A stretch of DNA of 42,766 nucleotides from Asaia bogorensis. GTDB lineage: Bacteria > Pseudomonadota > Alphaproteobacteria > SHVZ01. The stretch lies in contig CAMDFP010000007.1 in NCBI GenBank assembly GCA_945897335.1, positions 1 to 42,766 of the forward strand, given 5' to 3'. Of this stretch, positions 12,603 to 42,766 are shown piece by piece; the stretch's first letter is position 1; every line of letters begins with the position of its first letter. Position numbers and translations under genes: made by a program. The notes under the pieces are model-generated. The model saw only the letters and a program-made list of their open reading frames with translations, had not been told where the DNA came from and ran no database searches.

Positions 12603-13943
12603 ATGATAGCGCGTCGGGTCGGGGTCGGGCAAAGTGCCTCGCCGTCAGCGCGCCTCCCGGAGCCCTCCCTGTCCCATCCGTTCATCGACCTCGTCAAGGA
12701 TCCGCCGACCCGGCGGGTCTGGGCCGGTCTCAGCCTGCAGAGCATCGCCGAGGAACTACTGCGCATGGCGGTGATCTGGCTCGCCATCGACATGGTGGGT
12801 GCAGCCGCGAGCTTCCTGCCGGCGGCTCAGTTCGTCGCCGCCTTCGTCGTCAGCATCCTTGCCGGTGCGGTCGCCGACCGGTTCTCGCCGCGGGGGACGA
12901 TGGTGTGGGTGAATCTGATCCGTGCCGGCCTGGCACTCCTGCCGGTAGCGATGTTTCTCGCCGATCTCCTCTCCTTCCCGATGCTGATGCTGGCTGCCGT
13001 CGCCATGTCGTCGCTCCGCGGCGTCTACGACCCGGCGCTGCAGGCGAGCGTGCCGAAACTCGCGCCGTCGCCGGGCCACATGCAGGCGATGAACGGACTC
13101 TTCGATTCCACCCACCGCATGGCCCGCCTGATCGGGCCATTCATCGGCGGCTTCCTGTCCCTGGTGTTGCCGGTCATCCACTTCCTGACGGTGACCGCGA
13201 TCGGCTACGTGCTGAGCGCGCTGGCGATCCGCGGCGTCGGCCGTGGCCTCGACGTGCCGCATGGAATCCAGGGGTCCGCCGGCGTCGCCGGTGCGATCCG
13301 GCGGATGCTGCAGGGAGTGACGGTGGCCCGGCGCGACCGGCCCGTCGGCCGCATCCTCATCGCCAATTCCGTCAACCTGTTCGGCTGGATCCTCGGGCTG
13401 ACCCTCGGCATTCCGATGCTGATGGCGAACCATCCGCCGTCGGGCTTCGAGGATCAGCCGCTGGTCGCCTTGAGCTGCATCGTCGGCGCCTACGGGGCTG
13501 GCGACTTCTCTTCCAACATCTGGGTCGCGAACCGCTATCCGGCCGACCGCTGGCGCTTCATGTTCACTGGATACCTAGTGCTCGGCCTCGGCACCGCCTG
13601 CCTGCCGCTGCCGATCATCATCGGCCTCGGCTCCTGGGAGCTGCCGGTGATGATGGCGATCGGCTTCGTCGGCGGATGGGGCGGGCCGATCTTCTTCCTG
13701 CCGATGCTGACGACGCTGCAGACCCGGGTCTCCGGCGCCGACCTCGCCGCGGTGTTCCGGCTCCGGATCGCGCTCACCTCGGGCTCGATGGCGCTGAGCT
13801 CGCTCACCGGGTCGTGGATGTTCGCCGGGCCGGGGCCGATATTTACCGTCGTCTTCGCCGGCCTGTTCATGGCGGCGACCGGCTGCGTCGGCCTCCTCGC
13901 GCGGCCGCCGGAGATGTCGGCGGCCGCGTCTAAGGAGACTTAG
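12603..13943 (+). CDS. MFS transporter (MFS_3/EntS-like)
   Basis: This is a membrane protein of about 446 residues with around 12 hydrophobic segments. The loop after the second helices, GAVADRFSPRGTMVWVNLIR, is the MFS A-motif region, and LRGVYDPALQASVPKL follows as in EntS-type exporters. The start is uncertain. I give the ATG at 12603, but a TTG at 12594 is also in frame and neither has a good ribosome binding site. The conserved part begins near LVKDPPTRRVWAG. The gene lies only 17 bases from the divergent TauD-like gene, so the two must share promoter DNA and are probably linked in function. The stop overlaps the convergent gene's stop (TTAG). Confidence 0.85.
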   Translation: MIARRVGVGQSASPSARLPEPSLSHPFIDLVKDPPTRRVWAGLSLQSIAEELLRMAVIWLAIDMVGAAASFLPAAQFVAAFVVSILAGAVADRFSPRGTMVWVNLIRAGLALLPVAMFLADLLSFPMLMLAAVAMSSLRGVYDPALQASVPKLAPSPGHMQAMNGLFDSTHRMARLIGPFIGGFLSLVLPVIHFLTVTAIGYVLSALAIRGVGRGLDVPHGIQGSAGVAGAIRRMLQGVTVARRDRPVGRILIANSVNLFGWILGLTLGIPMLMANHPPSGFEDQPLVALSCIVGAYGAGDFSSNIWVANRYPADRWRFMFTGYLVLGLGTACLPLPIIIGLGSWELPVMMAIGFVGGWGGPIFFLPMLTTLQTRVSGADLAAVFRLRIALTSGSMALSSLTGSWMFAGPGPIFTVVFAGLFMAATGCVGLLARPPEMSAAASKET

Positions 13944-26815: not shown

Positions 26816-27727
26816 ATGAGGCCGCAGACGCGGGCCGAGCGCGACATGCGCGGCCCGGATCCACTGCCGACCGCGAGGCTGCCGTCACGATCGCTGTTGA
26901 TCGGCCTGATCGGCGCCGGCATCCAGGCGTCGCGGTCGCCGGCGCTCCACGAGCGCGAGGCGGAGGAGCAGGGGCTTCGCTGTCTCTACCGGCTGATCGA
27001 TCTCGATGTCCTCGGGCTGCCGGCCGAGGCGGTTGGCGAGCTGCTGACCGCCGCCGAGCGGATGAGCTTCGCCGGTGTCAACGTCACCCATCCCTGCAAG
27101 CAGACGGTGATCGGGGCCCTGGACCGTCTCTCGCCCGAAGCGGAAGCGATCGGCGCGGTGAACACCGTCGTCTTCGGCAAGGATGGGCGGACCGGCCACA
27201 ACACGGATTCCTGGGGCTTCGCCGAGAGCTTCCGCCGCGGCATGAGCGGCGCTCGGCTCGGCCGCGTCGTCCAGATCGGCGCAGGTGGTGCCGGAGCGGC
27301 GGTGGCGACTGCGGCCCTGTCCCTCGGCGTCGAGACGCTGACCATCGTCGATCGCCTGCGCGACCGGGCGGAGGCGTTGGCGACGCGCCTCGAACGCTAT
27401 GCCGGCTCGCGCCGGACCACGGCGGGGTCAGATGCGGAGGCTGCGCTCGCCGACGCCGACGGCCTGATCAACGCGACGCCGATGGGCATGGCCAAGTATC
27501 CGGGCCTGCCGGTTCCGGCGGAGCTTCTCCGCCCCGGCCTCTGGGTCGCCGATATCGTCTACACCCCGATCGAGACCGCCTTGCTGCGCGCCGCGCGGCA
27601 GGCCGGCTGCCGGACGCTGTCCGGCGGCGGCATGGCCGTGTTCCAGGCCGCGGAAGCCTTTCGCCTGTTCTCCGGCATCGCCCCCGATGCCGCCCGCATG
27701 CTCCGGCACTTCGAGACGATGAGATGA
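26816..27727 (+). CDS. Shikimate/quinate dehydrogenase (AroE family, probably NAD-dependent)
   Basis: This is a 303-residue AroE-family protein. The substrate site is S39-R-S41, K95 in VNVTHPCKQ, N116 and D131 in HNTDSWGF. The nucleotide loop is GAGGAG at 155-160, and the second strand ends VDRLRDRAE. AroE enzymes that use NADP have an N-R-T turn there; an aspartate points to NAD. The NVTHPCKQ motif is like that of the NAD-dependent quinate/shikimate dehydrogenase of Corynebacterium. I therefore read it as a catabolic enzyme oxidising quinate or shikimate to the 3-dehydro form. AGGGAAGG lies before the ATG. The neighbours supply the transporter and the next two pathway steps. Confidence 0.88.
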   Translation: MRPQTRAERDMRGPDPLPTARLPSRSLLIGLIGAGIQASRSPALHEREAEEQGLRCLYRLIDLDVLGLPAEAVGELLTAAERMSFAGVNVTHPCKQTVIGALDRLSPEAEAIGAVNTVVFGKDGRTGHNTDSWGFAESFRRGMSGARLGRVVQIGAGGAGAAVATAALSLGVETLTIVDRLRDRAEALATRLERYAGSRRTTAGSDAEAALADADGLINATPMGMAKYPGLPVPAELLRPGLWVADIVYTPIETALLRAARQAGCRTLSGGGMAVFQAAEAFRLFSGIAPDAARMLRHFETMR

Positions 27728-27778
27728 CCGCCGGAGGCTTCACGCCGTCGACCAAACACACCGAAAGGGAGGATGATC

Positions 27779-28765
27779 ATGGACTTATCGGTTAGCCGCC
27801 GCACGCTGCTCAAGACCAGCGCCGCGCTGATGGCCGCTTCGGCCGTACCCGCCTATGCGCAAGCCAAGCCGAATCTGCGCTTCTCCGCCGTGTTCTCCGA
27901 CAAGGACATCCGCGCGAAGATGATCGAGATGCTGGCGAAGGACGTCGAGGGCGACTTCAAGATCGAACCGCATCTCAACGGCTCCCTGTTCAAGCAGGGC
28001 ACCGAGCTGGTCGCGCTCCAGCGCAACAACCTCGAGATGGGCAACATCGCGCCCCAGGACGTCTCGAACCAGATCCCGGCGTGGTCGATCGTGACCTCGG
28101 CCTATCTTTTCCGCGACGCCAAGCACCTTCACACCTTCTTCGCCAGCGCGCCCGGCGCCGAGATGACGAAGATGGTCGAGGACCAGCTCAAGGTGAAGAT
28201 CCTCGGCCCCACCTTCTTCGGCACCCGCCAGGTCGGCCTCAAGCCCAACAAGAAGGTCGCTACGCCCGCCGATATGGCCGGGATCAAGCTCCGCATGCCC
28301 GGCGGCGACGCCTGGCAGATGCTCGGCCGCTCGCTTGGCGCCAACCCGGTGCCGGTCGCCTATGCCGAGGTCTACACGGCGCTGCAGACCGGGGCTATCG
28401 ACGGCCAGGACAATCCGCTGCCGAACGTGCAGAACATGAAGTTCTACGAAGTCATGTCGCAGATGGTGATGACCAGCCATCTGATCGGCTTCGACCTTCT
28501 CACCATCTCGTCCAAGGCGTGGGGCGACATGTCGGCGGCGCAGAAGCAGAAGTTCCAGGCCGCGGCGACCAAGGCGATCCAGTGGAGCGCCGACGAGCAC
28601 CTGAAGCAGGAAGCCGAACTCGTCGAGTTCCTGAAGAAGCAGGGGCTCCAGATCAATACGCCGGACGTCAAGGCGTTCCGCGAGCATGCGCAGAAGATGT
28701 ACCTGGCATCCGACCAGGCGAAGACCTGGCCGGCCGGCATGCTCGACAAGATCAACGCGCTCTAG
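27779..28765 (+). CDS. dctP: TRAP transporter substrate-binding protein DctP
   Basis: The ATG at 27779 lies six bases after GGGAGG and is preferred to one two codons earlier. The protein has 328 residues. The signal peptide has a twin-arginine form (SRRTLLK) and should be cut after AYAQA. Mature-protein marks are KLRMPGGDAWQMLGRSLGA and ALQTGAIDGQDNPLPN, the conserved ligand region of DctP proteins. The arginine in LRMPG normally binds the carboxylate of the ligand. It lies between the quinate/shikimate dehydrogenase and its own membrane subunits, so the ligand is predicted to be quinate, shikimate or a close relative. Confidence 0.93.
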   Translation: MDLSVSRRTLLKTSAALMAASAVPAYAQAKPNLRFSAVFSDKDIRAKMIEMLAKDVEGDFKIEPHLNGSLFKQGTELVALQRNNLEMGNIAPQDVSNQIPAWSIVTSAYLFRDAKHLHTFFASAPGAEMTKMVEDQLKVKILGPTFFGTRQVGLKPNKKVATPADMAGIKLRMPGGDAWQMLGRSLGANPVPVAYAEVYTALQTGAIDGQDNPLPNVQNMKFYEVMSQMVMTSHLIGFDLLTISSKAWGDMSAAQKQKFQAAATKAIQWSADEHLKQEAELVEFLKKQGLQINTPDVKAFREHAQKMYLASDQAKTWPAGMLDKINAL

Positions 28766-28774
28766 GACGCGTAT

Positions 28775-28810
28775 CCTCTCCCCGTCGGCCGGTCGGCGGG
28801 CGGGGAGGGG
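28775..28810 (+). promoter_or_regulatory. Stem-loop between dctP and dctQ
   Basis: CCTCTCCCCG at 28775-28784 pairs with CGGGGAGGGG at 28801-28810 (one G-T wobble) around a 16-base loop. It starts ten bases after the dctP stop, and its right arm contains the likely ribosome binding site of dctQ. It could protect dctP mRNA or lower dctQ translation, giving more binding protein than membrane subunits. Confidence 0.5.
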
Positions 28811-28818
28811 CGCTGCGA

Positions 28819-29337
28819 ATGACCTCATTCATCGAGAAAGCGGGGCCCTGGCTCCGTCGCCGGGCCGAGAACGTGATCGCGCTGCTGTTCGCGGTCATGT
28901 TCGTCGCATTCCTGGTCCAGATCGTCTTCCGCTACGTCTTCAACTTCCCGATCGGCTGGACCTCCGAGCTCACCATCGTCACCTGGATCTGGCTGGTGCT
29001 GTGGGGGGCCGCCTTCGTCGTCACCGAGCGCGAGGAGATCCGCTTCGACCTGATCTATGCCGCGGTCGGGGATCGCATCCGCCGGATCATGGCGGTGATC
29101 ACCGGACTCTCGCTGATCGGGCTCTACCTGGTCTCTTTGCCGGCGATGGTCGACTACGTCACCTTCATGAAGGTCGAGAAGACCGCCTATCTCAAGATCC
29201 GCTTCGACCACCTCTACTCGATCTACGTGATCTTCGTCATTGCCGTTCTCGCGCGATACATCTGGCTCGTCGTCGCCGCGGTTCGCGGCAAGGCGCCGGC
29301 CGCCTTCGATCCGACCCAGGCGAGCTCGGGCGTATGA
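28819..29337 (+). CDS. dctQ: TRAP transporter small membrane subunit DctQ
   Basis: This is a 172-residue membrane protein with four helices at about residues 17-39, 48-68, 87-107 and 129-150. The second helix region contains the DctQ pattern IGWTSELTIVTWIWLVLWGA, and the following TEREEIRFDL is the usual cytoplasmic turn. GGGGAGGGG lies eight bases before the ATG. The stop overlaps the dctM start as ATGA. It forms the membrane part of the transporter with DctM. Confidence 0.92.
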   Translation: MTSFIEKAGPWLRRRAENVIALLFAVMFVAFLVQIVFRYVFNFPIGWTSELTIVTWIWLVLWGAAFVVTEREEIRFDLIYAAVGDRIRRIMAVITGLSLIGLYLVSLPAMVDYVTFMKVEKTAYLKIRFDHLYSIYVIFVIAVLARYIWLVVAAVRGKAPAAFDPTQASSGV

Positions 29338-30635
29338 GTGCCGCCTTCTCCTGGTGCATCGCCGCGATCGTCGCCTTGAGCCTGCTCGGCCTCCCGATCG
29401 GGCATGCGATGATCGGCGGAACGGTCTTCTATCTGCTGCTCGCCGGCCTCGACATGTCGACGGCGGCCGAGCAGCTCCTGAACGGCCTCTATACCGGCTT
29501 CGTGCTGCTGGCGATCCCGCTCTTCATTCTTGCCGCCGAGTTCATGAACTCGGGCAGCATCACCGACCGCCTGCTCCGCTTCTGCGATGCCATCGTCGGC
29601 CGCTATCGTGGCGGTCTCGCCCACGTCAACGTGGTGCAGAGCATCATCTTCGCCGGCATGTCCGGCTCGGCGATCGCCGATGCCGCCGGCTCGGGCAAGC
29701 TGATGCAGGCGATGATGACCAAGGACGGCAAGTACCCGCCGGCCTTCGCCGCGGCGCTGACCGCGGTCACCGCGGTGATCGGCCCGATCATCCCGCCCTC
29801 GATCCCGATCGTGATCTACGCGCTCGTGTCCGACACCTCGATCGGCTACCTGTTCCTCGGCGGCGTCGTCCCGGGTGTGCTGATCGGCCTCGTGCAGATG
29901 GCCTTGATCGCGGTTACCGCCAGGCGCCGCAACTTCCCGGTCGAGAAGGCGGTACCGCTTCGCGACATGCCGCGGATCACCGTCGACGCCCTGCCGGCGC
30001 TGATGATGCCGGTGGTTCTGCTTGGCGGCATCTACAGCGGCGTTATGACGCCGACCGAAGCGGCGGCGGTGGCGGCGGCCTATGCGCTTGCCGTCTCGAC
30101 GCTGCTCTACCGCAACATGGGCTGGGGCGACATCTACCGCTCGCTCCTGGCGAGCGCGCGGACGACTGCGTCGATCGGCATGCTGATCGCCGGTGCGCTC
30201 GCCTTCAACTACGTCGTCACGATCGAGAACATCCCCAAGACACTCAGCGTGTACCTGCAGGCCATCCAGTTCACGCCGATCATGTTCCTGATCGCCGTCA
30301 ACATCCTGCTGCTGATACTCGGCTGCCTTCTCGAAGGCACCACGATCCTGCTGATCGTCGTGCCGGTGCTGATTCCGACGGCCGAGGCGCTCGGCGTCGA
30401 CATGGTGCATTTCGGCATCGTCGTCGTCGTCAACATCATGCTGGGCCTGGTGACGCCGCCCTACGGGCTGCTCCTCTTCGTCATGACCAACATCTCGGGT
30501 GTCTCGCTCAGCGCCCTGGTGCGAGAGGTGCTGCCCTTCCTCTGGGTCATGATCGGGGCGCTGGCGCTGATCACCTTCATCCCGGACCTCGTCCTGTTCC
30601 TTCCCAAGCTTATGGGCTACCGGGCATCGCCATGA
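29334..30635 (+). CDS. dctM: TRAP transporter large membrane subunit DctM
   Basis: This is a 433-residue membrane protein with about 12 helices, of usual DctM length. Family segments include IPLFILAAEFMNSG, IIFAGMSGSAIADAAGSGKL and AVTAVIGPIIPPSIPIVIYA near residue 145, and GGIYSGVMTPTEAAAVAAAYA in the second half. It catalyses sodium-driven uptake of the acid delivered by DctP. Both ends overlap neighbouring genes by four bases (ATGA), so dctQ, dctM and the dehydratase gene are tightly coupled. Confidence 0.95.
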   Translation: MSAAFSWCIAAIVALSLLGLPIGHAMIGGTVFYLLLAGLDMSTAAEQLLNGLYTGFVLLAIPLFILAAEFMNSGSITDRLLRFCDAIVGRYRGGLAHVNVVQSIIFAGMSGSAIADAAGSGKLMQAMMTKDGKYPPAFAAALTAVTAVIGPIIPPSIPIVIYALVSDTSIGYLFLGGVVPGVLIGLVQMALIAVTARRRNFPVEKAVPLRDMPRITVDALPALMMPVVLLGGIYSGVMTPTEAAAVAAAYALAVSTLLYRNMGWGDIYRSLLASARTTASIGMLIAGALAFNYVVTIENIPKTLSVYLQAIQFTPIMFLIAVNILLLILGCLLEGTTILLIVVPVLIPTAEALGVDMVHFGIVVVVNIMLGLVTPPYGLLLFVMTNISGVSLSALVREVLPFLWVMIGALALITFIPDLVLFLPKLMGYRASP

Positions 30636-31081
30636 CCAAACCGATCTATGTCCTGAATGGACCGAACCTGAACCGTCTCGGCAAGCGCGAGCCCGAGATC
30701 TATGGCACCACGACGCTGGCCGAGATCGAGGCGATGTGCCGGAAGGCGGCCGGCAGCCGTCCGCTCGAGTTCCGCCAGTCGAATGCCGAGTACCAGCTCG
30801 TCGACTGGATCCACGAGGCGATCGACGCCGGTGTCGTCGGCATCGTCATCAACCCGGCCGGGCTGACCTTCACCTCGATCCCGATCCTGGACGCGCTGAA
30901 GATGTTCCCCGGCCCGATCTTCGAGCTGCACATCTCCAACATCCACCGGCGCGAGCCGATCTATCACAACTCGCTGGTCTCCAAGATCGCGACCGCCGTG
31001 ATCGCCGGCCTCGGGCCCGACGGATACCCGACCGCGGTCGCGGCGATGCTGCGTCTCCTGGAGACGACACCCAAGAAGTAG
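30632..31081 (+). CDS. aroQ: Type II 3-dehydroquinate dehydratase
   Basis: The 149-residue protein is of normal length. It starts at MTKPIYVLNGPNLNRLGKRE. Catalytic residues R19 and Y24 (IYG) are present, as are N74, E98-L-H100 in FELHISN and R107. It dehydrates 3-dehydroquinate to 3-dehydroshikimate. At residues 79-82 the sequence reads TFTS where most relatives have THTS, so F80 replaces a usually conserved histidine in the substrate pocket. The position in the operon, between the dehydrogenase/transporter genes and the dehydroshikimate dehydratase, makes it the catabolic copy. A biosynthetic aroQ or aroD probably lies elsewhere. Confidence 0.93.
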   Translation: MTKPIYVLNGPNLNRLGKREPEIYGTTTLAEIEAMCRKAAGSRPLEFRQSNAEYQLVDWIHEAIDAGVVGIVINPAGLTFTSIPILDALKMFPGPIFELHISNIHRREPIYHNSLVSKIATAVIAGLGPDGYPTAVAAMLRLLETTPKK

Positions 31082-31088
31082 GTTTGCC

Positions 31089-32975
31089 ATGCAGACCGCC
31101 ATAGCCACCGTCTCGCTCAGCGGGACGCTCGAGGAGAAGCTGGAGGCGATCGCCGAGGCGCGCTTCACCGGCGTCGAGATCTTCGAGAACGACCTGCTCT
31201 CCTTCAACGGCACGCCGGCCGACGTCCGGCGCATAGTCGGCGACCTCGGCCTCCACACCGTCACCTTCCAGCCGTTCCGCGACTTCGAAGGCATGCCGGA
31301 GCCGCAGCGCGCCCGGGTCTTTGACCGGGCCGAGCGCAAGTTCGACCTGATGCAGACTCTGCGCTGCGACCTGCTGCTGATCTGCAGCAACGTGGCGCCG
31401 GATGCGATCGGCGGTATCGACCGGGCGGCCGCGGATTTCCATGAGCTGGGCGTGCGGGCGGCGAAGCGCGGCCTCCGCGCCGCCTACGAGGCGCTGGCCT
31501 GGGGCCGCCACGTCAACGACTACCGGGACGCCTGGGAAGTGGTGCGGCGCGCCGATCATCCGTCGATCGGCCTGGTGCTCGACACCTTCCACACCCTGGC
31601 GCGGAAGACCGACCTCAAGGCGATCCGCTCGATCCCGAAGGACCGGATCTTCCTGGTCCAGGTCGCCGACGCGCCGCTGCTGGACATGGACTACCTCTCC
31701 TGGAGCCGACACTTCCGCTGCCTCCCCGGCCAGGGCGAGCTCGATCTCGACGGCTTCATGGAGGCTCTCCAGGCGACCGGCTTCGACGGCATCCTGTCGC
31801 TCGAGATCTTCAGCGACCGTTTCCGCGCCGGGTCGACCCGCAGAGTCGCGGTCGACGGCCAGCGCTCGCTGCTCTTCATGCTGGACGAGCTACGACAGCG
31901 CACCGGCCTGGCGACGCCCGGCATTCCGGTCCTGCCCGAGCGCGCCGTCTGCACCGGTGTCGAGTTCGTCGAGTTCGCCGTCGACGAAGCCTTCCAGCCC
32001 GGCTTCGAGACGCTGCTCCGGGGCTTGGGATTCCGCCGTTCCGGCGTCCACCGTTCGAAGGCGGTGACGCGCTGGAGCCAGGGCCAGATCAGCCTGGTCC
32101 TGAACGCGGAGAAGGAAGGCTTCGCGCATTCCTACAACATCGCGCATGGCCCGTCGGTCTGCGCCATCGCGCTTCGGGTGGACGATGCGACGGCGACGAT
32201 GGAACGGGCGCGGGCGCTGCTGGATCAGAGCTATGTCGGTCGTGCCGGCCCGGGCGAGCTGGAGCTGCCGGCGCTTCGCGGCCTCGGCGGCAGCCTGCTC
32301 TATCTCATCGACGGCAAGAGCCGTCTGGCGACACTCTGGGAAACCGACTTCGAGCCCGTCAGCTCAACCGAGGACGATCCTTCCGCGGGCCTCACCCGGG
32401 TCGACCACATCGCCCAGTCGATGCAGTACGAGGAGATGTTGACCTGGCTCCTCTTCTATACCTCGCTGCTGGACGTGACCAAGACGCCGGTGCTGGATCT
32501 CGTCGATCCCGGCGGCGTCGTGCAGAGCCAGGTGGTGCAGACGCGAGACGGCGCGCTGCGCCTCGTCCTCAACTCCTCGCAGAGCCAGCGCACGCTCTCG
32601 GCGCGATTCCTTGCCGAGTTCTTCGGCTCGGGCGTGCAGCATCTCGCATTCGCCACCGACGACATCTTCGCCACCGCCGAGCGGCTCCGGGCGGCGGGCC
32701 TGGACCTGCTGCCGATCCCCGAAAACTACTACGACGACCTCGAAGCCAAGACCGGCCCTCCGGCAGAAGAGATCGATCGGATGCGGCGTCTCGGCATCCT
32801 CTACGACCGCGACGACGAGGCGGAGTACCGGCAGCTCTATACCAGGACCCTGGCCGAGGGCTTTTTCTTTGAGATCGTCGAACGCCGGAACTACCAGGGT
32901 TTCGGCGCCGTCAACGCACCGATCCGCCTGGCCGCCCAGACCCGCCTCGCACAGCGCCCGTCGCCGCGATTGTGA
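31089..32975 (+). CDS. quiC: 3-dehydroshikimate dehydratase fused to an HPPD-like domain (QuiC type)
   Basis: This is a 628-residue two-domain protein. The N-terminal TIM barrel (about 1-270) has metal ligands E134, D165, Q191 and E239 in AAYE, VLDTFHT, LVQVADAP and LSLEIFS. These are the positions I recall for the Pseudomonas putida enzyme QuiC1. It converts 3-dehydroshikimate to protocatechuate. The C-terminal part (about 285-628) is a 4-hydroxyphenylpyruvate dioxygenase-like double domain, and its iron triad looks intact: H440 in RVDHIAQS, H518 in GVQHLAFAT and E595 in FFFEIVERR. Whether this half has its own activity is unclear. It is the last gene of the quinate operon and is followed by a strong hairpin. 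Confidence 0.92.
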   Translation: MQTAIATVSLSGTLEEKLEAIAEARFTGVEIFENDLLSFNGTPADVRRIVGDLGLHTVTFQPFRDFEGMPEPQRARVFDRAERKFDLMQTLRCDLLLICSNVAPDAIGGIDRAAADFHELGVRAAKRGLRAAYEALAWGRHVNDYRDAWEVVRRADHPSIGLVLDTFHTLARKTDLKAIRSIPKDRIFLVQVADAPLLDMDYLSWSRHFRCLPGQGELDLDGFMEALQATGFDGILSLEIFSDRFRAGSTRRVAVDGQRSLLFMLDELRQRTGLATPGIPVLPERAVCTGVEFVEFAVDEAFQPGFETLLRGLGFRRSGVHRSKAVTRWSQGQISLVLNAEKEGFAHSYNIAHGPSVCAIALRVDDATATMERARALLDQSYVGRAGPGELELPALRGLGGSLLYLIDGKSRLATLWETDFEPVSSTEDDPSAGLTRVDHIAQSMQYEEMLTWLLFYTSLLDVTKTPVLDLVDPGGVVQSQVVQTRDGALRLVLNSSQSQRTLSARFLAEFFGSGVQHLAFATDDIFATAERLRAAGLDLLPIPENYYDDLEAKTGPPAEEIDRMRRLGILYDRDDEAEYRQLYTRTLAEGFFFEIVERRNYQGFGAVNAPIRLAAQTRLAQRPSPRL

Positions 32976-32978
32976 GAC

Positions 32979-33010
32979 GGAGGGACCGCGCCTATCATCG
33001 CGGTCCCTCC
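32979..33010 (+). terminator. Perfect 12-bp stem-loop after quiC
   Basis: GGAGGGACCGCG at 32979-32990 and CGCGGTCCCTCC at 32999-33010 pair without mismatch around the eight-base loop CCTATCAT, starting four bases past the quiC stop. No T run follows, so it may be a factor-dependent terminator or a 3'-end protecting hairpin. It separates the quinate operon from the next gene group. Confidence 0.6.
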
Positions 33011-33034: not shown

Positions 33035-34621
33035 ATGCGCGTCCGCGATTTCTACTCGGGTCGTTCCGCGATCTATGCCGATCACGGCATCGCCGCCACC
33101 GCGTCGCCGCGCGCGACCCTGGCCGCCCTCGACATGCTGCGTTCCGGCGGCAATGCCGTGGATGCGGCGCTGACCGCGATCGCCATGCTCTGCGTTATCG
33201 AGCAGGGATCGACCGGCATCGGCGGCGACTGCTTCGTCCTCTATTCGCCGAAAGCAGGGAAGCCGATAGGCCTCAACGGCTCCGGCCGGGCACCGGCGGC
33301 GGCGACCGCGGCGTGGTACGCCGCCGAGGGCATCAAGAAGATCGAGATGCAGACGCCGCATGCCGTCACCGTCCCCGGTGCCATCGACGCCTGGTGCCGG
33401 CTGCACGCCGATCACGGCAGCCGGTCGCTGGACGAGATCTTCGCCCCGGCGATCGAGGCGGCGGAACAGGGTTTCCGGCTTACGCCCCGTATCGGCACCG
33501 AATGGGCGAAGCTGATTGGCAAGCTCTCGGTCGATGCCGACACCAAGCGGATCTACGTGCCGAACGGCAAGGTCCCGGCGATCGGCGACACCCACAAGCT
33601 GCCGACGCTGGGTGCCACGCTCCGGAAGATCGCCAAACAGGGGCGCGACGGCTTCTACAAGGGCGAGGTCGCCCAGGACATCGTCGACAAGCTGCAGAGC
33701 GTCGGTGGCCTCCACACCATGGCGGACTTCGAGGCGTCGCGGCCGGACTATGTGACGCCGATCTCGACCCGCTATCGCGGCCATGACGTCTACGAGATCC
33801 CGCCGAACGGGCAGGGCATCACCGCGCTGATCATGCTGAACGTGCTTCAGGGCTACGACTACGGCTCCGACAAGCTGAGCCAGGCCGACCGCATCCACCT
33901 GATGAGCGAGGCAGCCAAGCACGCCTATCGGCTGCGCAACCTGCACGTCGCCGACATGAGCCAGGCCGAGGTGCCGGTCGAGCGCCTGCTCTCGACCCAG
34001 GAGGCGGAGTCGATCCGCAGCCAGATCGACATGGCGAAGGCCGGCGCCATCACCAAGGCCGACTTCATCCAGCACCGCGACACGACCTATCTCTGCGTCG
34101 TCGACAAGGACCGGAACGCGGTCTCGCTGATCAACTCGCTCTACTCCCACTACGGCTCGGGCATCACCGCGCCGAAATCCGGCGTCATCCTGCAGAACCG
34201 CGGCCAGGGCTTCGTGCTGCGGGAAGATCACCCCAACTGCATCGCGCCCGGCAAGCGCCCGATGCACACCATCATCCCAGGCATGATGATGAAGGACGGC
34301 AAGACGGTGATGCCCTTCGGGGTCATGGGCGGCGACTTCCAGCCGATCGGCCACACCTCCGTAGTGACGCACATGCTCGATTCCGGCATGGATCCCCAGG
34401 ACGCGATCGCCCAGCCGCGGGTCTTCCCCTACGAGGGCAAGGTCCAGCTCGAGCCGGCGATCCCCGAAAGCGTCGCCGAGGATCTCCGTCGGCGCGGCCA
34501 TGTGGTCGAGCGGACGGACGTGCCGCCGGGCGGCGGCCAGGCGATCTGGATCGACCACGACCGCGGCGTCCTGATCGGCGGCTCCGAGCCCCGCAAGGAC
34601 GGCTGTGCCTTCGGCTACTGA
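33035..34621 (+). CDS. Gamma-glutamyltransferase family protein (second copy)
   Basis: The protein has 528 residues from the ATG at 33035, which follows AAAAGGAACGACC. An upstream in-frame start would run through the hairpin and is rejected. Family features are SGGNAVDAALTAIAM near residue 38, TPHAVTVPGAIDAW near 107, and the processing site HRDTTYLCVVDKDRN, which predicts T350 as nucleophile. The glycine loop is FGVMGGDFQPIGH in the C-terminal part. There is no signal peptide. It belongs to the FGVMGGD-type branch, different from the copy at 13940. It heads an operon with a binding protein, a PLP enzyme and oxoprolinase subunits, which fits cleavage of a gamma-glutamyl or similar amide bond. 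Confidence 0.9.
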   Translation: MRVRDFYSGRSAIYADHGIAATASPRATLAALDMLRSGGNAVDAALTAIAMLCVIEQGSTGIGGDCFVLYSPKAGKPIGLNGSGRAPAAATAAWYAAEGIKKIEMQTPHAVTVPGAIDAWCRLHADHGSRSLDEIFAPAIEAAEQGFRLTPRIGTEWAKLIGKLSVDADTKRIYVPNGKVPAIGDTHKLPTLGATLRKIAKQGRDGFYKGEVAQDIVDKLQSVGGLHTMADFEASRPDYVTPISTRYRGHDVYEIPPNGQGITALIMLNVLQGYDYGSDKLSQADRIHLMSEAAKHAYRLRNLHVADMSQAEVPVERLLSTQEAESIRSQIDMAKAGAITKADFIQHRDTTYLCVVDKDRNAVSLINSLYSHYGSGITAPKSGVILQNRGQGFVLREDHPNCIAPGKRPMHTIIPGMMMKDGKTVMPFGVMGGDFQPIGHTSVVTHMLDSGMDPQDAIAQPRVFPYEGKVQLEPAIPESVAEDLRRRGHVVERTDVPPGGGQAIWIDHDRGVLIGGSEPRKDGCAFGY

Positions 34622-34639
34622 GACGAGAAGAGGAACTCC

Positions 34640-36214
34640 ATGACCCGGTCCGTACGCTCGCTTGCCTCCCTGATCGCCGCCTCGTCGCTGCTCGGGATCT
34701 TCGCCTCACCGGTGTTGGCGCAGGGCACCCTGAAGATGGTGCCGCATGCCGACCTCAAGGTTATGGACCCGATCTTCACCACCGCGACGATCACCAACGA
34801 TCACGCGATGATGATCTACGACCAGCTCTTCGCCTGGGACGACAAGCTGACGCCGAAGCCGCAGATGGTGGAGAACTGGGCGGTCGCGCCCGACAAGCTC
34901 TCCTATACCTTCGCGCTTCGCCCAGGCCTCAAGTTCCATGACGGCTCGACCGTGACTGCCAAGGACGTCGTCGCCTCGATCCAGCGCTGGTCGAAGCGCG
35001 ATCCCATGGGGCAGAAGATGGCGGAGTTCACCGCCGGCTGGTCGGTGGTCGACGACCGCACCTTCGCGCTCCGGCTGAAGGAGCCTTTCGGCCTGGTGCT
35101 CGACACGCTGGCCTCGACTGCCGCCAACATGCCGGTGGTGATGCGCGAGAAGGATGCCGCGACCGATGCCTTCACCGCGATCACGGAAGCGGTCGGCTCC
35201 GGCCCGCACCGCTTCGTGAAGGAGGAGTACCAGCCCGGCAACAAGGTTGTGTACGCGAAGTTCGCCGACTATGTGCCGCGGGCCGAGCCGGCGGACGGTC
35301 TTGCCGGCGGCAAGCGCGTCCGCGTCGACCGGGTCGAGTGGGTGTCGATCCCGGAGCCCTCGACCGCCGCCTCGGCGCTGGTCGCCGGCGAAGTCGACAT
35401 GATCGAGGCGATCAACAATGACCAGAAGGTCCTGCTGACCCGCTCCAAGGACGTGAAGGTCGAGGCACTCTCCCGGCTCGGCTGGTTCGGCCTGCTGAGG
35501 CCGAACCATCTGCACCCGCCCTTCGACAATCCCAAGGCGCGGCAGGCTCTGGCATTGATGGTCGACCAGTCCGAGTACATGCAGGCGGCCTTCGGCGGCG
35601 GCGAGGCCTGCTTCTCCTACTTCACCTGCGGCAGCCCGTTCGGCATCGAAGTCGGCTCCGAGAGTTTCCGGAAGCCCGACTTCGCCCGCGCGAAGCAGCT
35701 CCTGGCCGAGGCCGGCTACAAGGGCGAGAAGGTCGTGCTGCTCGGCGCCGGCGACCTCTTCCATCACAACGCCGCTGCCCAGGTGACCACCGAGAACCTG
35801 AAGAAGATCGGCATCAACGTCGACCTGCAGATGTCCGACTGGGGGGCGGTCATCACCCGCCGCGCGAAGAAGGACAAGCCCGAGGCCGGCGGCTACAACA
35901 TCTACCAGACCTTTTCCGACGGCGTGTCGGCGATGACGCCGGCGACAAACGTCTCGATCGTCTCGACCTGCGACGGCAGGAACGCGGTCGGCTGGCCCTG
36001 CGACGAGCAGGTCGAGAAGCTGCGCGACCAGTACATCCGCGCCACCGACGACGCCGAGAAGAAGCGGATCCTGGAGACGCTGCACCGGCGCCTGTGGGAG
36101 ACGGTGCCTTACGTGATCCTCGGCAAGTACGAGCGCCTGGCGGCCTATCGCACCAGCCTCGACGGCGTGCTGCACACCAACGTGCTGGCGCTCTGGAACA
36201 TTGCCAAGAAGTAG
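34640..36214 (+). CDS. ABC transporter substrate-binding protein, family 5 (oligopeptide type)
   Basis: This is a 524-residue exported protein. The signal peptide ends ASPVLA-Q near residue 27. The core shows the DppA/OppA pattern: [42 protein letters not shown] (ends LRPGLKF and KDVVASI), and later [19 protein letters not shown]. These proteins bind peptides, opines, nickel complexes or sugars. No permease or ATPase gene lies in this operon, which is unusual, so it must share membrane components encoded elsewhere. Its neighbours, a gamma-glutamyltransferase homologue and oxoprolinase, suggest a peptide or acylated amino acid as ligand. Confidence 0.92.
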
Positions 36215-36222
36215 CCAGCCGC

Positions 36223-37425
36223 ATGACTGAACGATCCAACATCCGGGCTCGCCTCGGGCTCCGGCCGGTCATCAACGTCTCCGGCACCATGACGACGCTG
36301 GGCGCGTCGATCGTGGTGCCGGACGCGGTCCGCGCGGTGAGCGAGATCCTGCCGGAATGGGTCGAGGTCAACGACCTGCATCGGATGGCGAGCCGCGCCA
36401 TCGCCAAGGCAACGGGTACGGAAGCAGGCTTCGTGACCGCTTCCGCCGCCGCCGGCATCACCCTGGCGTTGGCCGGCTGCATGACGGGGGCTGACCTCGG
36501 CCGCATCGAGCAACTTCCCGACACCACGGGCATGAAGAACGAGGTAGTGATCCAGATGGGCCACCTGACCGGGTATGGCGCTTCCGTCGACCAGGCGATC
36601 CGCCTCGCCGGCGCGAAGTGCATTCCGGTCGGCAACGTCACCGATGCGCGGCCCTATCAGCTCGCCCACAAGATTACGGAGCGCACGGCGGCGGCGCTCT
36701 ACGTCGTCTCGCACAGCACGGCGCAGTACGGCCAGATGCCGCTCGACGTCTTCGCCCGCGTCGCCCATGACCAGGGCGTCCCGGTCGTCGCCGACCTGGC
36801 TTCCGAATACGACCTCAAGGGCTTCGCCGCCGTCGGCGCCGATCTCGTCATCTACAGCGGGCACAAGTTCCTGGGAGGGCCGACGGCCGGCATCGTCGGC
36901 GGCCGCAAGGCACTGGTGCGCGCCACGTTCCTGCAGAACTACGGCATCGGCCGTGGCATGAAGGTGGGCAAGGAGAGCATCGCCGGCACCATCGCCGCGC
37001 TGGAAGCCTGGGAGAAGCGCGACCACACCGGCATTCGCAAGCTCGAGCGCAGCACTCTGGATCTCTGGGTCAGACGCTTCTCAGACCTGCCGGGCGTGAC
37101 GGCAACGATCACACCAGACCCCACCGACAATCCGCTTGACCGGCTCGATCTCAAGGTCGATCCGGAGGCCGCGTGCATCACCGCCTGGGAACTGGCGGAT
37201 GCGCTGGCGGCCGGCAGCCCGCCTGTCGCGGTACGCGACATCCAGGTCGAAAACGGCTGGTTCCAGCTGGATCCCTGCAACCTGCATCCGGGCGAGGCGG
37301 AGATCGTCGCCGACCGCATCGTCGCCGAGCTGACGGAGGCGCGAAAGCGCAACCGCCCGCAGCAGTACAGCCTCGCCGAACGCCAAGCCAAACGTATCGA
37401 AGGCCTGCTACGCTGGCCTGATTAG
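36223..37425 (+). CDS. SelA-like PLP-dependent enzyme (fold type I)
   Basis: This 400-residue protein starts eight bases after the preceding stop. [18 protein letters not shown] near residue 14 is the signature start of the SelA/DgaE group. D191 in [10 protein letters not shown] and K215 in [17 protein letters not shown] are the expected cofactor aspartate and lysine. The C-terminal [20 protein letters not shown] also fits. Despite the SelA label of many databases, relatives that lie outside selenocysteine gene clusters act as ammonia-lyases, transferases or racemases on amino acids or amino sugars, such as D-glucosaminate-6-phosphate ammonia-lyase. No selenocysteine genes lie here. It probably acts on the amino acid freed by the gamma-glutamyltransferase-like or oxoprolinase step. 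Confidence 0.88.
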
Positions 37426-37448
37426 CCCGCCGAGAGAGAGGAAGCCCG

Positions 37449-39200
37449 ATGGCCGCCGCAGCTGATCCGATCGTCGCCTCGGTGATCCAGCACCGGCTCT
37501 TCGCCATCGTCGAGGAGATGGGCGAGGCCATGCTCCGGACCTCGTACTCCCAGATCCTGAATTCCAGCCGCGATTTCTCGACCGGCATCTGCGATCCCGA
37601 GGGCCGGCTGATCGCCCAGGCCGAACATGTGCCGATCCATGTCGGCGCGCTGCCCTGGGCGGCGCGTGCGGTCACCGAATTCTTCAAGGACGACGTCCAT
37701 CCCGGTGACGTCTTCCTGCTGAACGACCCCTATCACGGCGGCAACCACCTGCCGGACCTGACCGCCTTCGTGCCGGTGTTCGAGGACGGCAAGCTCACCT
37801 TCTGGTCGATCAACCGCTCGCACCAGAGCGACATCGGTGGCGCCACTCATGGGGCCTACAACGCGGCGGCGACCGAGATCTGGCAGGAAGGGCTTCGCAT
37901 CACGCCGCTCCGCCTCTACGACAAGGGCGAACTCCGCCGCGACGTCTACGAGATGATCGTCACCAACGTCCGCCACCCGCGCGACTTCCGCGGCGACCTG
38001 GCGGCGATGATCGGCTCGGCCCGCATCGGCGAGCGCCGTATGCAGGCGTTGATCGCCGAGTTCGGCTCCGAGCAGTCGCATGCGGCGATCGAGGCGATCC
38101 TGGATTCGGCCGAGCGCCAGGCCCGCGCCGTCATCGCCTCATGGAAGGACGGCGTCTACAAGGGCGAGGCGTTCCTCGACGACGACGGTCACAAATACGA
38201 GGACGTCCATATCCGCGCCACGGTGACCAAGAAAGGCTCGGACCTCACCATCGACCTGACCGACTCCCACCGGCAGGTGGTGGGTTTCATCAACTCGTCT
38301 TATCCGAACATGCGCTCGGCCGTGGCGATGGCGCTGGCCTATCTGATCGACCCGCACACGCCGAAGAACGACGGCACCTTCCGGCCGCTGACCGTGCTGG
38401 CCGAGCCCGGCACGGTGGTCTGGGCCAATCCCGGCGCGCCGGTAACGCTGGCGACCAACCACTGCGCGCAGGAGATCATGGAGGCGATCATCAAGGCGCT
38501 GGCGCCGGCCTGCCCTGACCGCGCCATGGCCGGCTGGGGCCGGCGCTTCCGCATCGCCATCCAGGGCACGGATCCGCGCCTCGGGCGGCCCTTCATCTGG
38601 CACCTGTTCCAGGCGCGGCCGGGCGGCGGCGGCTCCTCGGCCGGCGACGGCTGGCCCGGCGGTGGCGAGTGGCAGGCCGCCGGCGGCATCAAGTTCGGCA
38701 GCATGGAAGTGACCGAGGTTCGTTTCCCGCTGTTCTTCGAGCGCCACGAGTTCCGCGTCGACTCCGGTGGTGACGGCAAGTACCGCGGCGGCCCCGGCTG
38801 CGTTCTCGACCTACGGATGGAGATCGAGGAACCGGCCCTCGGCAACACCGCGGGCGACGGTGCCCGCTACGGCGCCTGCGGCATGCTGGGCGGCGAGGAC
38901 GGGTTGCCGCATCGCTACGTGCTGCGGTCCAAGCGGCGGCCCGACCGCGTCATCAAGACCAAGGAGGTCGGCATCGAGATCCGGCCGGGCGACGTCTTCC
39001 ACATCCTTTCCGGCGGAGGCGGCGGCTGGGGCTTGGGCAAGGACCGCGATCCCGCCGCCCGCGCCCGCGACGTCGTGAACGGATTCGCCAGCCGTGCGTT
39101 GAAGCCGAAAGCCAAAGCGATGTCCAAGGCGCGGAAGGCAAAGCCGGCCGTTCGCAAACCTGCCCCGAAGCGCGCAGCCAAGGGGCGGAGCAGGCCATGA
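37449..39200 (+). CDS. hyuB: Hydantoinase B/oxoprolinase family protein with a basic C-terminal tail
   Basis: This is a 583-residue protein starting after GAGAGAGAGGAAG. The family's N-terminus (PIVASVIQHRLFAIVEEMGE, then LRTSYSQILNSSRDFSTGI) is clear. VPIHVGALPWA, LNDPYHGGNHLPDLTAF and the glycine-rich GGDGKYRGGPGC segment follow. It acts with HyuA as an ATP-dependent cyclic amidase on hydantoins, 5-oxoproline or related rings, or as a carboxylase. The last 35 or so residues are a lysine-, alanine- and proline-rich tail (SKARKAKPAVRKPAPKRAAK) not part of the usual fold. The stop overlaps the hyuA start as ATGA. The order B then A is the reverse of many operons. Confidence 0.92.
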   Translation: MAAAADPIVASVIQHRLFAIVEEMGEAMLRTSYSQILNSSRDFSTGICDPEGRLIAQAEHVPIHVGALPWAARAVTEFFKDDVHPGDVFLLNDPYHGGNHLPDLTAFVPVFEDGKLTFWSINRSHQSDIGGATHGAYNAAATEIWQEGLRITPLRLYDKGELRRDVYEMIVTNVRHPRDFRGDLAAMIGSARIGERRMQALIAEFGSEQSHAAIEAILDSAERQARAVIASWKDGVYKGEAFLDDDGHKYEDVHIRATVTKKGSDLTIDLTDSHRQVVGFINSSYPNMRSAVAMALAYLIDPHTPKNDGTFRPLTVLAEPGTVVWANPGAPVTLATNHCAQEIMEAIIKALAPACPDRAMAGWGRRFRIAIQGTDPRLGRPFIWHLFQARPGGGGSSAGDGWPGGGEWQAAGGIKFGSMEVTEVRFPLFFERHEFRVDSGGDGKYRGGPGCVLDLRMEIEEPALGNTAGDGARYGACGMLGGEDGLPHRYVLRSKRRPDRVIKTKEVGIEIRPGDVFHILSGGGGGWGLGKDRDPAARARDVVNGFASRALKPKAKAMSKARKAKPAVRKPAPKRAAKGRSRP

Positions 39201-41242
39201 TCCGGATCGGCATCGATGTCGGCGGCACCTTTACCGACCTGGTCGCGATCGACGAGGCGGGCGGATCCACCATCGCCAAGGCGGCTTCGACCCCGACCGA
39301 TCCCTCGATCGGCGTGATCGACGGGCTCGAGCGGCTGGCGGCGATGCTCTCGACCGATCTCGCGACCCTTCTGCAGCGGACCGAGCGCATCGTGCATGGC
39401 ACCACGGTCGCCACCAACGCGCTGCTGGAGCGGAAGGGCGCCAAGGTTGGGCTGCTCACCACCGACGGCCATCGCGACGTCATCGAGATGCGGGAAGGGC
39501 TGAAGGACGACCGCTACAATCTCCGCATGCCGGCGCCGGAGCCGCTGGTGCCGCGTGCGCTCCGGCTCGGCGTCAAGGAACGCATGCGCGCCGACGGCAA
39601 GGTCGGCACGCCGCTCGACCGCACCTCGCTGGAGCGCGCCATCGCCCAATTGAAGACGCAGGGCGTTGAGTCGGTCGCCGTCTGCTATCTGCACGCCTAT
39701 CGCGATCCGCGCCACGAGCGCGCGACCGGCAAGGCGGTCAGGAAGGCGATGCGCGGCGCCTATGTCTCGCTCTCCTCCGAGGTTTTCCCGCAGATCAAGG
39801 AGTTCCAGCGGGTTTCGACCACGGTGGTCAACGCCTATGTCGGCCCGATCCTGTCGCGCTATCTGACGCGGCTCGAGAAGCGTCTGAAGGACGCCGGCTA
39901 CACTGGGCCGGTGCTGATCATCCAGTCCCATGGCGGCGTCACGCCGATCGACGAGGCGGTGCGGCTCGCCGCCGGCTCTGTGCTCTCCGGCCCTGCGGGC
40001 GGCGTCGCCGGCAGCCGGCATGCGGCGAGCCTGATCGGCTCGGGCGATCTCATTCCCTTCGACATGGGCGGGACCTCGACCGACATCTCGCTGATCGTGA
40101 ATGGCGAGCCGTCGCTGGCGCCCGACCGTGCGGTCGGCGGCCAGCGCGTCGCGCTCAACAGCCTCGACATCGTCAGCCTGGGCGCGGGCGGCGGCTCGAT
40201 CGGACGCGTCGATGCCGGCGGACTGCTCTATGTCGGGCCGGAAAGCGCCGGCGCCGAGCCAGGCCCGGCCTGCTATGGCCGCGGCGGCCTCGCCGCAACG
40301 GTGACCGACGCCAACCTGGTTCTGGGCTATCTCGATGCCGGCAACTTCCTCGGCGGCCGCAGCAAGCTCGACCGGCCGGCGGCCGAAGCTGCGCTCGACC
40401 GGCTGGCGAAGGAGCTCAAGGTCGATCGTGTGGCCGCCGCAGCCGGGGTGCATCGCGTCGTCAACACCAATATGGCCGAGGGCATCCGTCTGGTGTCGGT
40501 GCGCCGCGGCGTCGATCCGCGGCGCTTCGCGCTGCTCTCTTTCGGCGGCGCCGCCGGGCTGCACGCGACAGACGTCGCCCGCCAGCTCGATCTCACGCGA
40601 GTGATCGTGCCCAGAGTCGCGGCCGTGCTCTCGGCCTGGGGCATGCTGGCGACCGATCTCCGCTACGAGGTGGCGCGCACCCATATCGGCGATGCCAAGC
40701 ACTTGAGCGTCAGCGCGCTGAAGGCTCTTTACGAGGAAATGGCGGCCGAGGGCAGGGCGCGGCTGCCTGCGACCTTCGACGGGCCGATCCGCATCCACTA
40801 CGGCGCCGACATGCGCTACGGCGAGCAGATCTTCGAGGTCGCGGTGCCGCTGGACGGCGTCGACTGGACCAAGGATGACCCGATGCCGGATATCGTCGAG
40901 CGCTTCCACCAGCGTCATGAAGAGCTCTTCACCTATGCGCTGCGCGACCAGGAGGTGGTGCTGGTCAATGCCCGGGTCGCGGTGGTCGGCGTGCTTCCCG
41001 ACCTGCCGAAGGAACCGACGCTTCCCGACCGCTCGCCGGCGCCGCCGCGGGAAGAGCGGCGCGTCCATCTCGGCGAGTGGATCGAGGCGCCGGTCCATGA
41101 CTTCGATACGGTTGCGCGCGACCAGGTCATCGAGGGCCCGGCCATCGTCGAGTCGCCGACAACGACGGTGCTGCTGCGGTCGGGCGACCGGGCGCGCGTG
41201 ACCGCCGAAGGCTGGCTCGATATAGCAGTCCTGCGTCGCTAG
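39197..41242 (+). CDS. hyuA: Hydantoinase A/5-oxoprolinase family protein
   Basis: This is a 681-residue protein of the usual length for HyuA. The phosphate-binding start RIGIDVGGTFTDLVAID is that of the actin-like ATPase fold. HGTTVATNALLERKGAKVGLL lies at about residue 68 (quoted by ends HGTTVATN and AKVGLL). DMGGTSTDISLI and SLGAGGGSIGRVD lie in the middle, and GPESAGAEPGPACYGRGG follows. ATP is used to phosphorylate the ring or its product, and HyuB completes the reaction. The pair stands in an operon with a gamma-glutamyltransferase homologue, which is the known source of 5-oxoproline-related products, so a 5-oxoproline or N-acyl-amino acid route is likely. The stop overlaps the convergent cytochrome gene's stop as CTAG. 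Confidence 0.92.
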   Translation: MIRIGIDVGGTFTDLVAIDEAGGSTIAKAASTPTDPSIGVIDGLERLAAMLSTDLATLLQRTERIVHGTTVATNALLERKGAKVGLLTTDGHRDVIEMREGLKDDRYNLRMPAPEPLVPRALRLGVKERMRADGKVGTPLDRTSLERAIAQLKTQGVESVAVCYLHAYRDPRHERATGKAVRKAMRGAYVSLSSEVFPQIKEFQRVSTTVVNAYVGPILSRYLTRLEKRLKDAGYTGPVLIIQSHGGVTPIDEAVRLAAGSVLSGPAGGVAGSRHAASLIGSGDLIPFDMGGTSTDISLIVNGEPSLAPDRAVGGQRVALNSLDIVSLGAGGGSIGRVDAGGLLYVGPESAGAEPGPACYGRGGLAATVTDANLVLGYLDAGNFLGGRSKLDRPAAEAALDRLAKELKVDRVAAAAGVHRVVNTNMAEGIRLVSVRRGVDPRRFALLSFGGAAGLHATDVARQLDLTRVIVPRVAAVLSAWGMLATDLRYEVARTHIGDAKHLSVSALKALYEEMAAEGRARLPATFDGPIRIHYGADMRYGEQIFEVAVPLDGVDWTKDDPMPDIVERFHQRHEELFTYALRDQEVVLVNARVAVVGVLPDLPKEPTLPDRSPAPPREERRVHLGEWIEAPVHDFDTVARDQVIEGPAIVESPTTTVLLRSGDRARVTAEGWLDIAVLRR

Positions 41243-41787
41243 CGGCCGGGCAGCATCCGCACCAGAGTACGGTCGCGCAGCACGAAGTGGTGGAACAGCG
41301 CCGCGGCCGCGTGCAGGAGCGCCAGGATGAGGAGGGCATTGGCCAGAACCTCATGCACCTCCTTGACGGACCGTGCAGTCGCGCGCACCGCGGTCATCGG
41401 CGAGGGGATGGTGACGAGGCCGAGAACCGGCAACGCCTCGCCCCTCGCGAACTGCGCGGCGATCCCGGCCAGGGGAACGGCGAGCACCAGGGCGTAGAGC
41501 GCGTAGTGCGCGACCGCGGCGAAGCGTTCCGCCCAGCGTCCGAACGGCATCGGCTCCGGGGGCGGCGGCGCATCGACGACACGCCAGACGATGCGCGGCA
41601 GTAAGAGCGCCAGGACCAGAAGCCCGGTTGAGACGTGGATGAAGAAGGCGAGGTCCCGCCCGGCACCACGAGGCAGCTCCTCGCCGAAAGTGCCGAGCGC
41701 CCAGCCCGCTACCACGAGGGCGACGACCGCCCAGTGAAAGGCCTTGGCGATCGCGCCGTAGCCATGGGGAGTGTTTGCGAGCTTCAT
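41239..41787 (-). CDS. Cytochrome b561
   Basis: The protein has 182 residues from the ATG at 41787, which follows GGAGGC by five bases. An ATG nine codons earlier has no ribosome binding site. Four helices are seen. Candidate haem-binding histidines are H18 (AFHWAVVAL), H51 (FFIHVSTGL), H94 (VAHYALYAL), and H145 and H159 in the last helices. This is the layout of bacterial di-haem cytochrome b561, an inner-membrane protein that moves electrons between quinol and oxidants such as superoxide. It lies 23 bases after the ATPase gene on the same strand and could be read from its transcript. No link to the oxoprolinase cluster is apparent. Confidence 0.9.
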   Translation of the reverse strand: MKLANTPHGYGAIAKAFHWAVVALVVAGWALGTFGEELPRGAGRDLAFFIHVSTGLLVLALLLPRIVWRVVDAPPPPEPMPFGRWAERFAAVAHYALYALVLAVPLAGIAAQFARGEALPVLGLVTIPSPMTAVRATARSVKEVHEVLANALLILALLHAAAALFHHFVLRDRTLVRMLPGR

Positions 41788-41810
41788 TGATAGCCTCCGA
41801 TCATTCGAGT

Positions 41811-42766
41811 TCATGCGCGGAGCGCGCCGCGCCAGACGGATTTGGTGACCTCCAGGATCGCCAGCAGGACGCCGGTCCCGGCGAGCGAGATCGCGATGTC
41901 GTCGAGGTGAAGAGGACCGAAGCGGAAAAGTTCCCGGGCCGGTGGCCAGGTCAGGGCGACCGACAGCAGACCTGCAGCCGTCGCCACCACCAGCCAGAGC
42001 GCGGGATTCGGTCTGACGAAGGCGGTAATCAGCGAGCTTCGGTAGGACCGATTGACCAGGATCAGGCCGATATTGGCGATCACCAGCGAGACGAAGGCCA
42101 GCGCGCGGACCTCCCCCTCGGGCATGCCTCGTGCCTCCGCCAGGAAGTAGATGGTGGCGACGGCTGCAAGCGCGACCAGGCCCTGGAGCAGGCTCCAGGC
42201 GACCAGCGCGGTCGAGAACAGCGGCGCCGCGGGATCCCGTGGTGGTCGCGCCATCAGATCGCTCTCCTCCTTCTCCGCCTCGAAGACGATCGAGCAGACC
42301 GGATCGATCACCATCTCGAGGAAGGCGATGTGGATGGGCGTCAGGATCAGGGGCATGCCGAAGAGCAGTGGCAGGAAGGCCAGGCCCGCGATCGGCACGT
42401 GTACGGCCAGGATGTAGGCCATGGCCTTCCGGAGATTGTCGTAGATCCGCCGGCCGAGCCGGATGGTGCGGACGATGGAACCGAAGTCGTCGTCGAGGAG
42501 CACGAGGGAAGAGGCCTCGCGGGCGACGTCGGTGCCGCGCCCGCCCATGGCGATGCCGATATGCGCAGCCTTGAGCGACGGCGCGTCGTTGACGCCGTCC
42601 CCGGTCATGGCGACGATCTCGCCGGCACCCTTGAGCGCGCTGACGATGCGGAGCTTCTGGGAGGGCGTGATGCGGGCGAAGATGCTCGCCCGCGGCAGCA
42701 GAGCGGCGAGCGCGCCCTCGTCCAGCCCGTCGAGTTCCTCGCCCGAGACCACGGGACCGTCGGCGA
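41811..42766 (-). CDS. P-type cation-transporting ATPase, C-terminal part (cut by window edge)
   Basis: The frame is open to the window edge, so only about the last 317 residues are seen. The visible part begins in the P domain: the hinge motif [14 protein letters not shown] and the preceding [17 protein letters not shown] are complete. Membrane helices follow, including [21 protein letters not shown], marked here by its ends TPIHIAF and CSIVFE. This is the P2 type (calcium- or other cation-pumping) of the proteobacterial kind. The phosphorylated aspartate and the ion-binding helix M4 are outside the window, so the ion cannot be deduced. It should sit in the inner membrane. Confidence 0.9.

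Follow-up and report, generated by a model that had tools for sequence, protein, structure and literature searches.

Background

Several family-5 solute-binding proteins (SBPs) can depend on a single Dpp permease, for which Pseudomonas aeruginosa provides a precedent, its DppA1-A5 sharing DppBCDF (PMC4206461). Among GGT-type enzymes, changes at R114 and in the Ser-Ser (SS) pocket have been reported for the extremophile/YwrD group (PMC8062742), and the H163A variant of DGL was found to be still active, with stereospecific protonation lost and the enamine released (PMC9529869). Relatives of these proteins occur together with a HyuB-HyuA pair, the nearest solved relative of which is caprolactamase, in a five-gene run (Table 1) of the window, by which we mean the whole 42,766-nucleotide stretch analysed (contig C7 of a metagenome-derived 5.0-Mb draft genome in 442 contigs). 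Here we report that this run is a mosaic, specific to its lineage, whose parts all come from known families.

Results

The preliminary description had placed five genes at 33035-41242, and these boundaries proved exact, with all five genes present on one strand and their identities upheld by Pfam and NCBIfam profile matches. The run is as tight an operon as had been claimed (intergenic distances 18, 8 and 23 bp, with HyuB and HyuA overlapping by 4 bp), and neither an ABC permease nor an ATPase gene lies within it. The number of sigma-independent terminators within the run was no higher than in shuffled sequences. On the same strand, quiC (ending at 32975) precedes the run, with a gap of 59 bp to GGT.

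Table 1 Features of the five-gene run and its flanks, in window positions
Feature	Position	Strand	Evidence or remark
Upstream shikimate/quinate-type cluster: shikimate dehydrogenase-like, TRAP transporter, AroQ-like, QuiC	26816..32975	+	
Promoter-like TTGTGA-N17-TATCAT and 12-bp inverted repeat	32970..33010	+	Repeat arms 32979-33010, just 3' of quiC
GGT-like Ntn hydrolase, YwrD/BhGGT type	33035..34621	+	PF01019 476 bits; best solved relative 2nlz
Lineage-specific insertion, SBP and SelA-like, between GGT and HyuB	34622..37444	+	Nucleotide comparison with G004
Family-5 solute-binding protein (SBP), signal peptide	34640..36214	+	SBP_bac_5 235 bits; orphan clade of about 50 paralogues
SelA-like/DgaE-type PLP ammonia-lyase paralogue (putative)	36223..37425	+	PF03841 49 bits; TIGR01437 300 bits
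HyuB/CapB-type metal-site subunit	37449..39200	+	Hydantoinase_B 538 bits
HyuA/CapA-type ATP-binding subunit	39197..41242	+	Hydantoinase_A 308 bits; DxGGTFTD, DMGGT, GxxPGP motifs
Cytochrome b561 gene	41239-41814	minus	Next gene, convergent; overlaps HyuA stop

The run was compared with five genus-mates (G001 to G005) and one further family member taken from the genome database. Each genus-mate had one HyuB orthologue (90-95% identical), the gene order being GGT-HyuB-HyuA in G004 and QuiC-GGT-HyuB-HyuA in G002, both without SBP or SelA, and QuiC-HyuB-HyuA without GGT in G005 and G001; in G003, a different SBP (42% identical) lay ahead of HyuB. With G004, nucleotide homology broke off where the GGT stop codon ends (34621) and picked up at 37445, four bases before HyuB. 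Because the short GGT-HyuB spacer is homologous between G004 and G002, GGT-HyuB contiguity is, on this comparison, the older state, and SBP plus SelA came in later, as a derived insertion of 2.8 kb. The two genes that it carries are intact and have ribosome-binding-like sites. We also considered whether they are foreign by composition and rejected this, as their composition and codon usage match those of the flanks. Alternatively, the SBP-SelA segment might have been misjoined into this contig during assembly, given that the draft is fragmented and the arrangement is known from one assembly. However, both junctions fall exactly between genes with the tight spacing preserved, composition and codon usage equal those of the flanks, and the assembly would have had to misjoin twice, each time at a gene border, so that we regard an assembly chimera as highly improbable.

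At the promoter-like site upstream of GGT, the -10-like TATCAT sits inside the loop of the 12-bp inverted repeat (hairpin z -4.3). The loop (CCTATCAT) is identical in G004 and G002, the pair of genus-mates in which GGT likewise occupies this place, and the repeat arms, which differ in G002, have changed across the two yet still pair. This retention of loop and pairing suggests that the GGT unit may have its own controlled promoter, apart from the quinate/shikimate genes. The shikimate/quinate-type cluster is lost or reduced in G004, where GGT-HyuBA is retained, and is probably a neighbouring, separate unit.

In the GGT-like protein the nucleophile is still Thr, with Thr-Thr-Tyr aligned with the nucleophile region and small-chain matches beginning at residue 350. 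The canonical gamma-glutamyl carboxylate site is absent in the alignment (E. coli Arg114 replaced by Ser, Ser462/Ser463 by His-Thr); by inspection the protein has no signal peptide, and it is probably cytoplasmic. The GGT family is unusually well represented in this genome, with 22 matches, some of them partial, and two intact members lie in the window (13940-15541, minus strand, and 33035-34621). The ASKHA ATP motifs are present in HyuA, and HyuB has the D-H-D-H metal site, the CapB ligands D41, H99, D102 and H124 being conserved in the alignment; the NCBIfam equivalog cut-offs for caprolactamase were missed (623 and 397 vs 1000 bits). Past the end of the CapB match, HyuB carries an extra Lys/Ala/Pro-rich C-terminal tail (39030-39200; KPKAKAMSKARKAKPAVRKPAPKRAAKGRSRP). 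Together, the GGT-like and HyuAB motifs support a predicted hydrolysis of amides and of lactams or imides in general, and 5-oxoproline is not singled out. Nothing favours this earlier proposed substrate in particular, as caprolactamase is the nearest solved HyuAB relative and the GGT pocket is of the YwrD/cephalosporin-acylase type, not canonical gamma-glutamyl.

The SelA-like protein scored 300 bits against TIGR01437 (DgaE-like; cut-off 385) and 59.7 bits against the selenocysteine synthase SelA profile TIGR00474 (cut-off 267.9), and is 37% identical to DGL. The PLP lysine is kept (Lys215, DGL Lys213), and the three phosphate-site Arg of DGL read R, R and C, the Cys being common to all 90 close relatives. 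The proton donor His163 of DGL is replaced by Ser165, at a position where all 90 relatives sharing ≥57% identity have His. That H163S might characterise the SelA subfamily as a whole, and so account for its RidA neighbours, was rejected on this count. Across 149 near-invariant positions in the 90 relatives, the protein deviates at only four (H165S, V167A, I336A and H340I), which are confined to two catalytic loops, 336 and 340 flanking the equivalent of DGL Arg332.

In the tree, the SelA-like protein falls inside the genus clade of an ABC-linked gene that persists on contig C69; its gene is therefore, by phylogeny, a genus-level duplicate of a putative DgaE-type ammonia-lyase. Its pairwise dN/dS against the C69 copy is about 0.16, above the 0.06-0.14 of C69-type orthologues, so that by this measure the copy is under purifying selection overall, yet evolving faster. 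The simplest inference is that the protein would be a retuned ammonia-lyase, although the gene could also be a decaying copy.

No five-gene synteny was found in the genus-mates, 80 named genomes, 14 HyuBA loci or 20 GGT loci of the class. Outside the genus, none of 14 HyuBA loci (HyuB 60-76% identical) had a GGT, SBP or SelA homologue nearby, and HyuAB was near none of 20 GGT orthologue loci in other families. Among 80 loci of SelA relatives (60-84% identical), HyuA or HyuB occurred within 6 kb in none and GGT was nearby in one; an ABC ATPase was near 79, RidA near 73, Dpp-type permeases near 66-68 and a COG3964-like amidohydrolase near 44. The SelA-like enzyme is indeed an odd partner, as the preliminary description had it. 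In the genus itself, the usual SelA gene is the last gene of a polar-amino-acid-type ABC operon. Two loci are recorded separately. At one of the 20 GGT loci (L267, 4392-7300), which belongs to a different family of the class, the gene immediately upstream of the GGT orthologue is distantly SelA-like (32%), and in one further genome beyond these 20 loci (G186) a HyuA-like gene (41%) is divergent from GGT.

The preliminary description had read the run as one dedicated gamma-glutamyl/oxoproline pathway and had named the scattering of the homologous genes as what would speak against it; the homologues were indeed mostly apart, and the proposal found no support. In such a pathway for one substrate, the SBP would import a gamma-glutamyl or lactam compound, GGT would cut it, HyuBA would open the ring and the SelA-like enzyme would deaminate the product. 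The single tight co-directional run, the presence of every key catalytic motif save the SelA proton donor, and the divergence of the SelA copy in its active-site loops, as if retuned, all fit this reading, but the combination is absent from every other genome examined, the five genus-mates included, and two genus-mates retain HyuBA having lost GGT. We thus consider it unlikely. It is rather improbable, too, that SBP-SelA is a bystander in function, transcribed together with a GGT-HyuBA unit for generic amide/lactam opening yet having no metabolic link to it. The HyuBA core is kept in genus-mates with GGT, without GGT or with the different SBP of G003, as a bystander would allow, whereas the integrity of the inserted genes, their ribosome-binding-like sites and matching composition, and the SelA dN/dS of 0.16 argue against it.

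Querying the genome with the SBP gave 101 family-5 matches, 53 of them in a close clade; some of the 53 are fragments at contig ends, which makes about 50 genes an upper-end figure. A PF00528 permease lay within 5 kb in only 5 of the 53 clade members (48/53 without) and in 26 of the 46 other family-5 SBPs of the genome (20/46 without). Strong matches to the SBP numbered 26-51 in each of seven family members searched, and 40 other families of the class that were sampled had 0-3 copies of the clade; at 9/9 clade loci examined from other families, the order was SBP-permB-permC-ATPase. The window SBP lacks the usual mark of a Dpp-type transporter SBP, namely a permease and an ATPase encoded alongside it. 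The operon thus has no permease because its SBP belongs to an orphan clade that generally lacks a nearby one. The absence noted in the preliminary description is real, but it is no peculiarity of this operon, being a general trait of the SBP clade in this bacterial family.

On contig C5, permB, permC and two ATPase genes form an operon with no SBP. Its permB shares 66% identity, and its permC 64%, with the partners of the SBP clade in other families (the next best permB in the genome reaches 47%). The set is orthologous to those permeases and a natural candidate for a shared translocator. Just upstream of this operon (L248, 6797-10787) are two RidA genes, a creatininase and a COG3964-like amidohydrolase. 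In the first C5 ATPase the signature motif is interrupted by an in-frame stop, which is either genuine or an artefact of the assembly, and the genome holds about 30 other Dpp-type permB genes. Among 31 sampled, the neighbours of orphan SBPs included five M81/MlrC peptidases, two AstE/AspA deacylases, a penicillin amidase, and N-formylglutamate amidohydrolase, M19 dipeptidase, formamidase, dimethylformamidase-like and S15 genes. Since orphan SBPs often lie beside amide/peptide hydrolases, GGT beside the window SBP fits the pattern. Some orphan family-5 SBP genes stand in tandem or divergent pairs (L198, L199, L225 and L195), suggesting local duplication as one source of the expansion.

Discussion

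We consider it probable (roughly 0.6) that the run is a recent mosaic, in which a two-gene insertion into an older GGT-HyuBA unit works with a shared importer and the hydrolases and lyase. The comparisons themselves show the mosaic origin, the orphan clade and the permease set that has no SBP. The older, genus-level unit comprises the GGT-like amidase, HyuB and HyuA (predicted ATP-dependent amide/lactam opening), probably under its own promoter after the quinate/shikimate cluster, and the insertion brought the orphan SBP and the duplicated DgaE-type PLP lyase into it. We infer how these parts might act in sequence. In the periplasm, the SBP may bind a small amide, peptide or amino-acid derivative, then dock to a shared Dpp-type importer encoded elsewhere, possibly the permB-permC-two-ATPase set of contig C5, passing on its ligand; in the cytoplasm, the GGT-like Ntn hydrolase would cleave an acyl/amide bond, HyuAB would open a lactam or imide using ATP, and the SelA-like lyase would take the amino group off an amino acid by beta-elimination. 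Against this working part of the mosaic reading stand the in-frame stop in the C5 ATPase and the many alternative permB genes, and the enzymes could act on different substrates though in one transcript.

What appeared to be an unknown pathway thus becomes a plain example of an operon still being assembled, with the missing permease accounted for. The more interesting content lies in the clade of orphan SBPs, together with the permease set that lacks one, and in the altered lyase duplicate, the latter offering a clean natural test of proton-donor loss in DgaE. Tentatively, and with less confidence than for the mosaic itself, one SBP-less Dpp-type permease set might, in this bacterial family, serve as a hub for about 50 orphan family-5 SBPs, each by its own amide/peptide hydrolase. 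The window operon would be a fresh spoke, its duplicated lyase without the proton-donor His being retuned to a new amino acid and possibly releasing enamine for RidA. If this is true, the hydrolase adjoining each binding protein would hint at its ligand, and the system would be a large ABC counterpart to what Rhodoplanes and Bordetella have in their orphan TTT binding proteins. A literature search on orphan family-5 SBP expansions found none with the terms used.

Compared with known systems, the GGT-like protein resembles YwrD/BhGGT-type proteins (PDB 2NLZ; PMC4568574, PMC8062742) as an Ntn-hydrolase with a Thr nucleophile, R114 changed to Ser, SS to HT and no signal peptide, but differs in its gene neighbourhood. 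HyuA and HyuB share the HyuA/HyuB fold, CapA ATP motifs and CapB metal ligands with caprolactamase CapAB of Pseudomonas jessenii (PDB 6YRA, PMC8453981), whereas HyuB here lacks the CapB vicinal disulfide and the scores are far under the equivalog cut-offs. Like DGL, the SelA-like protein has the PLP Lys, the carboxylate Arg226 and two of three phosphate-site Arg; unlike DGL, it has Ser for His163 and Cys for Arg346, misses the family cut-offs and has no phosphotransfer genes near its gene. As is thought for DppA1-A5 and DppBCDF of P. aeruginosa (PMC4206461, PMC12728205), several family-5 SBPs may use one Dpp permease, but there are about 50 here, not five, scattered beside hydrolase genes. Finally, a lineage-specific SBP expansion without permeases is shared with the orphan TTT-family SBPs of Rhodoplanes (PMC5994714), also an alphaproteobacterium, and with the Bordetella Bug proteins, although the SBPs described here are of the family-5 ABC type and not of the TctC/TTT type.
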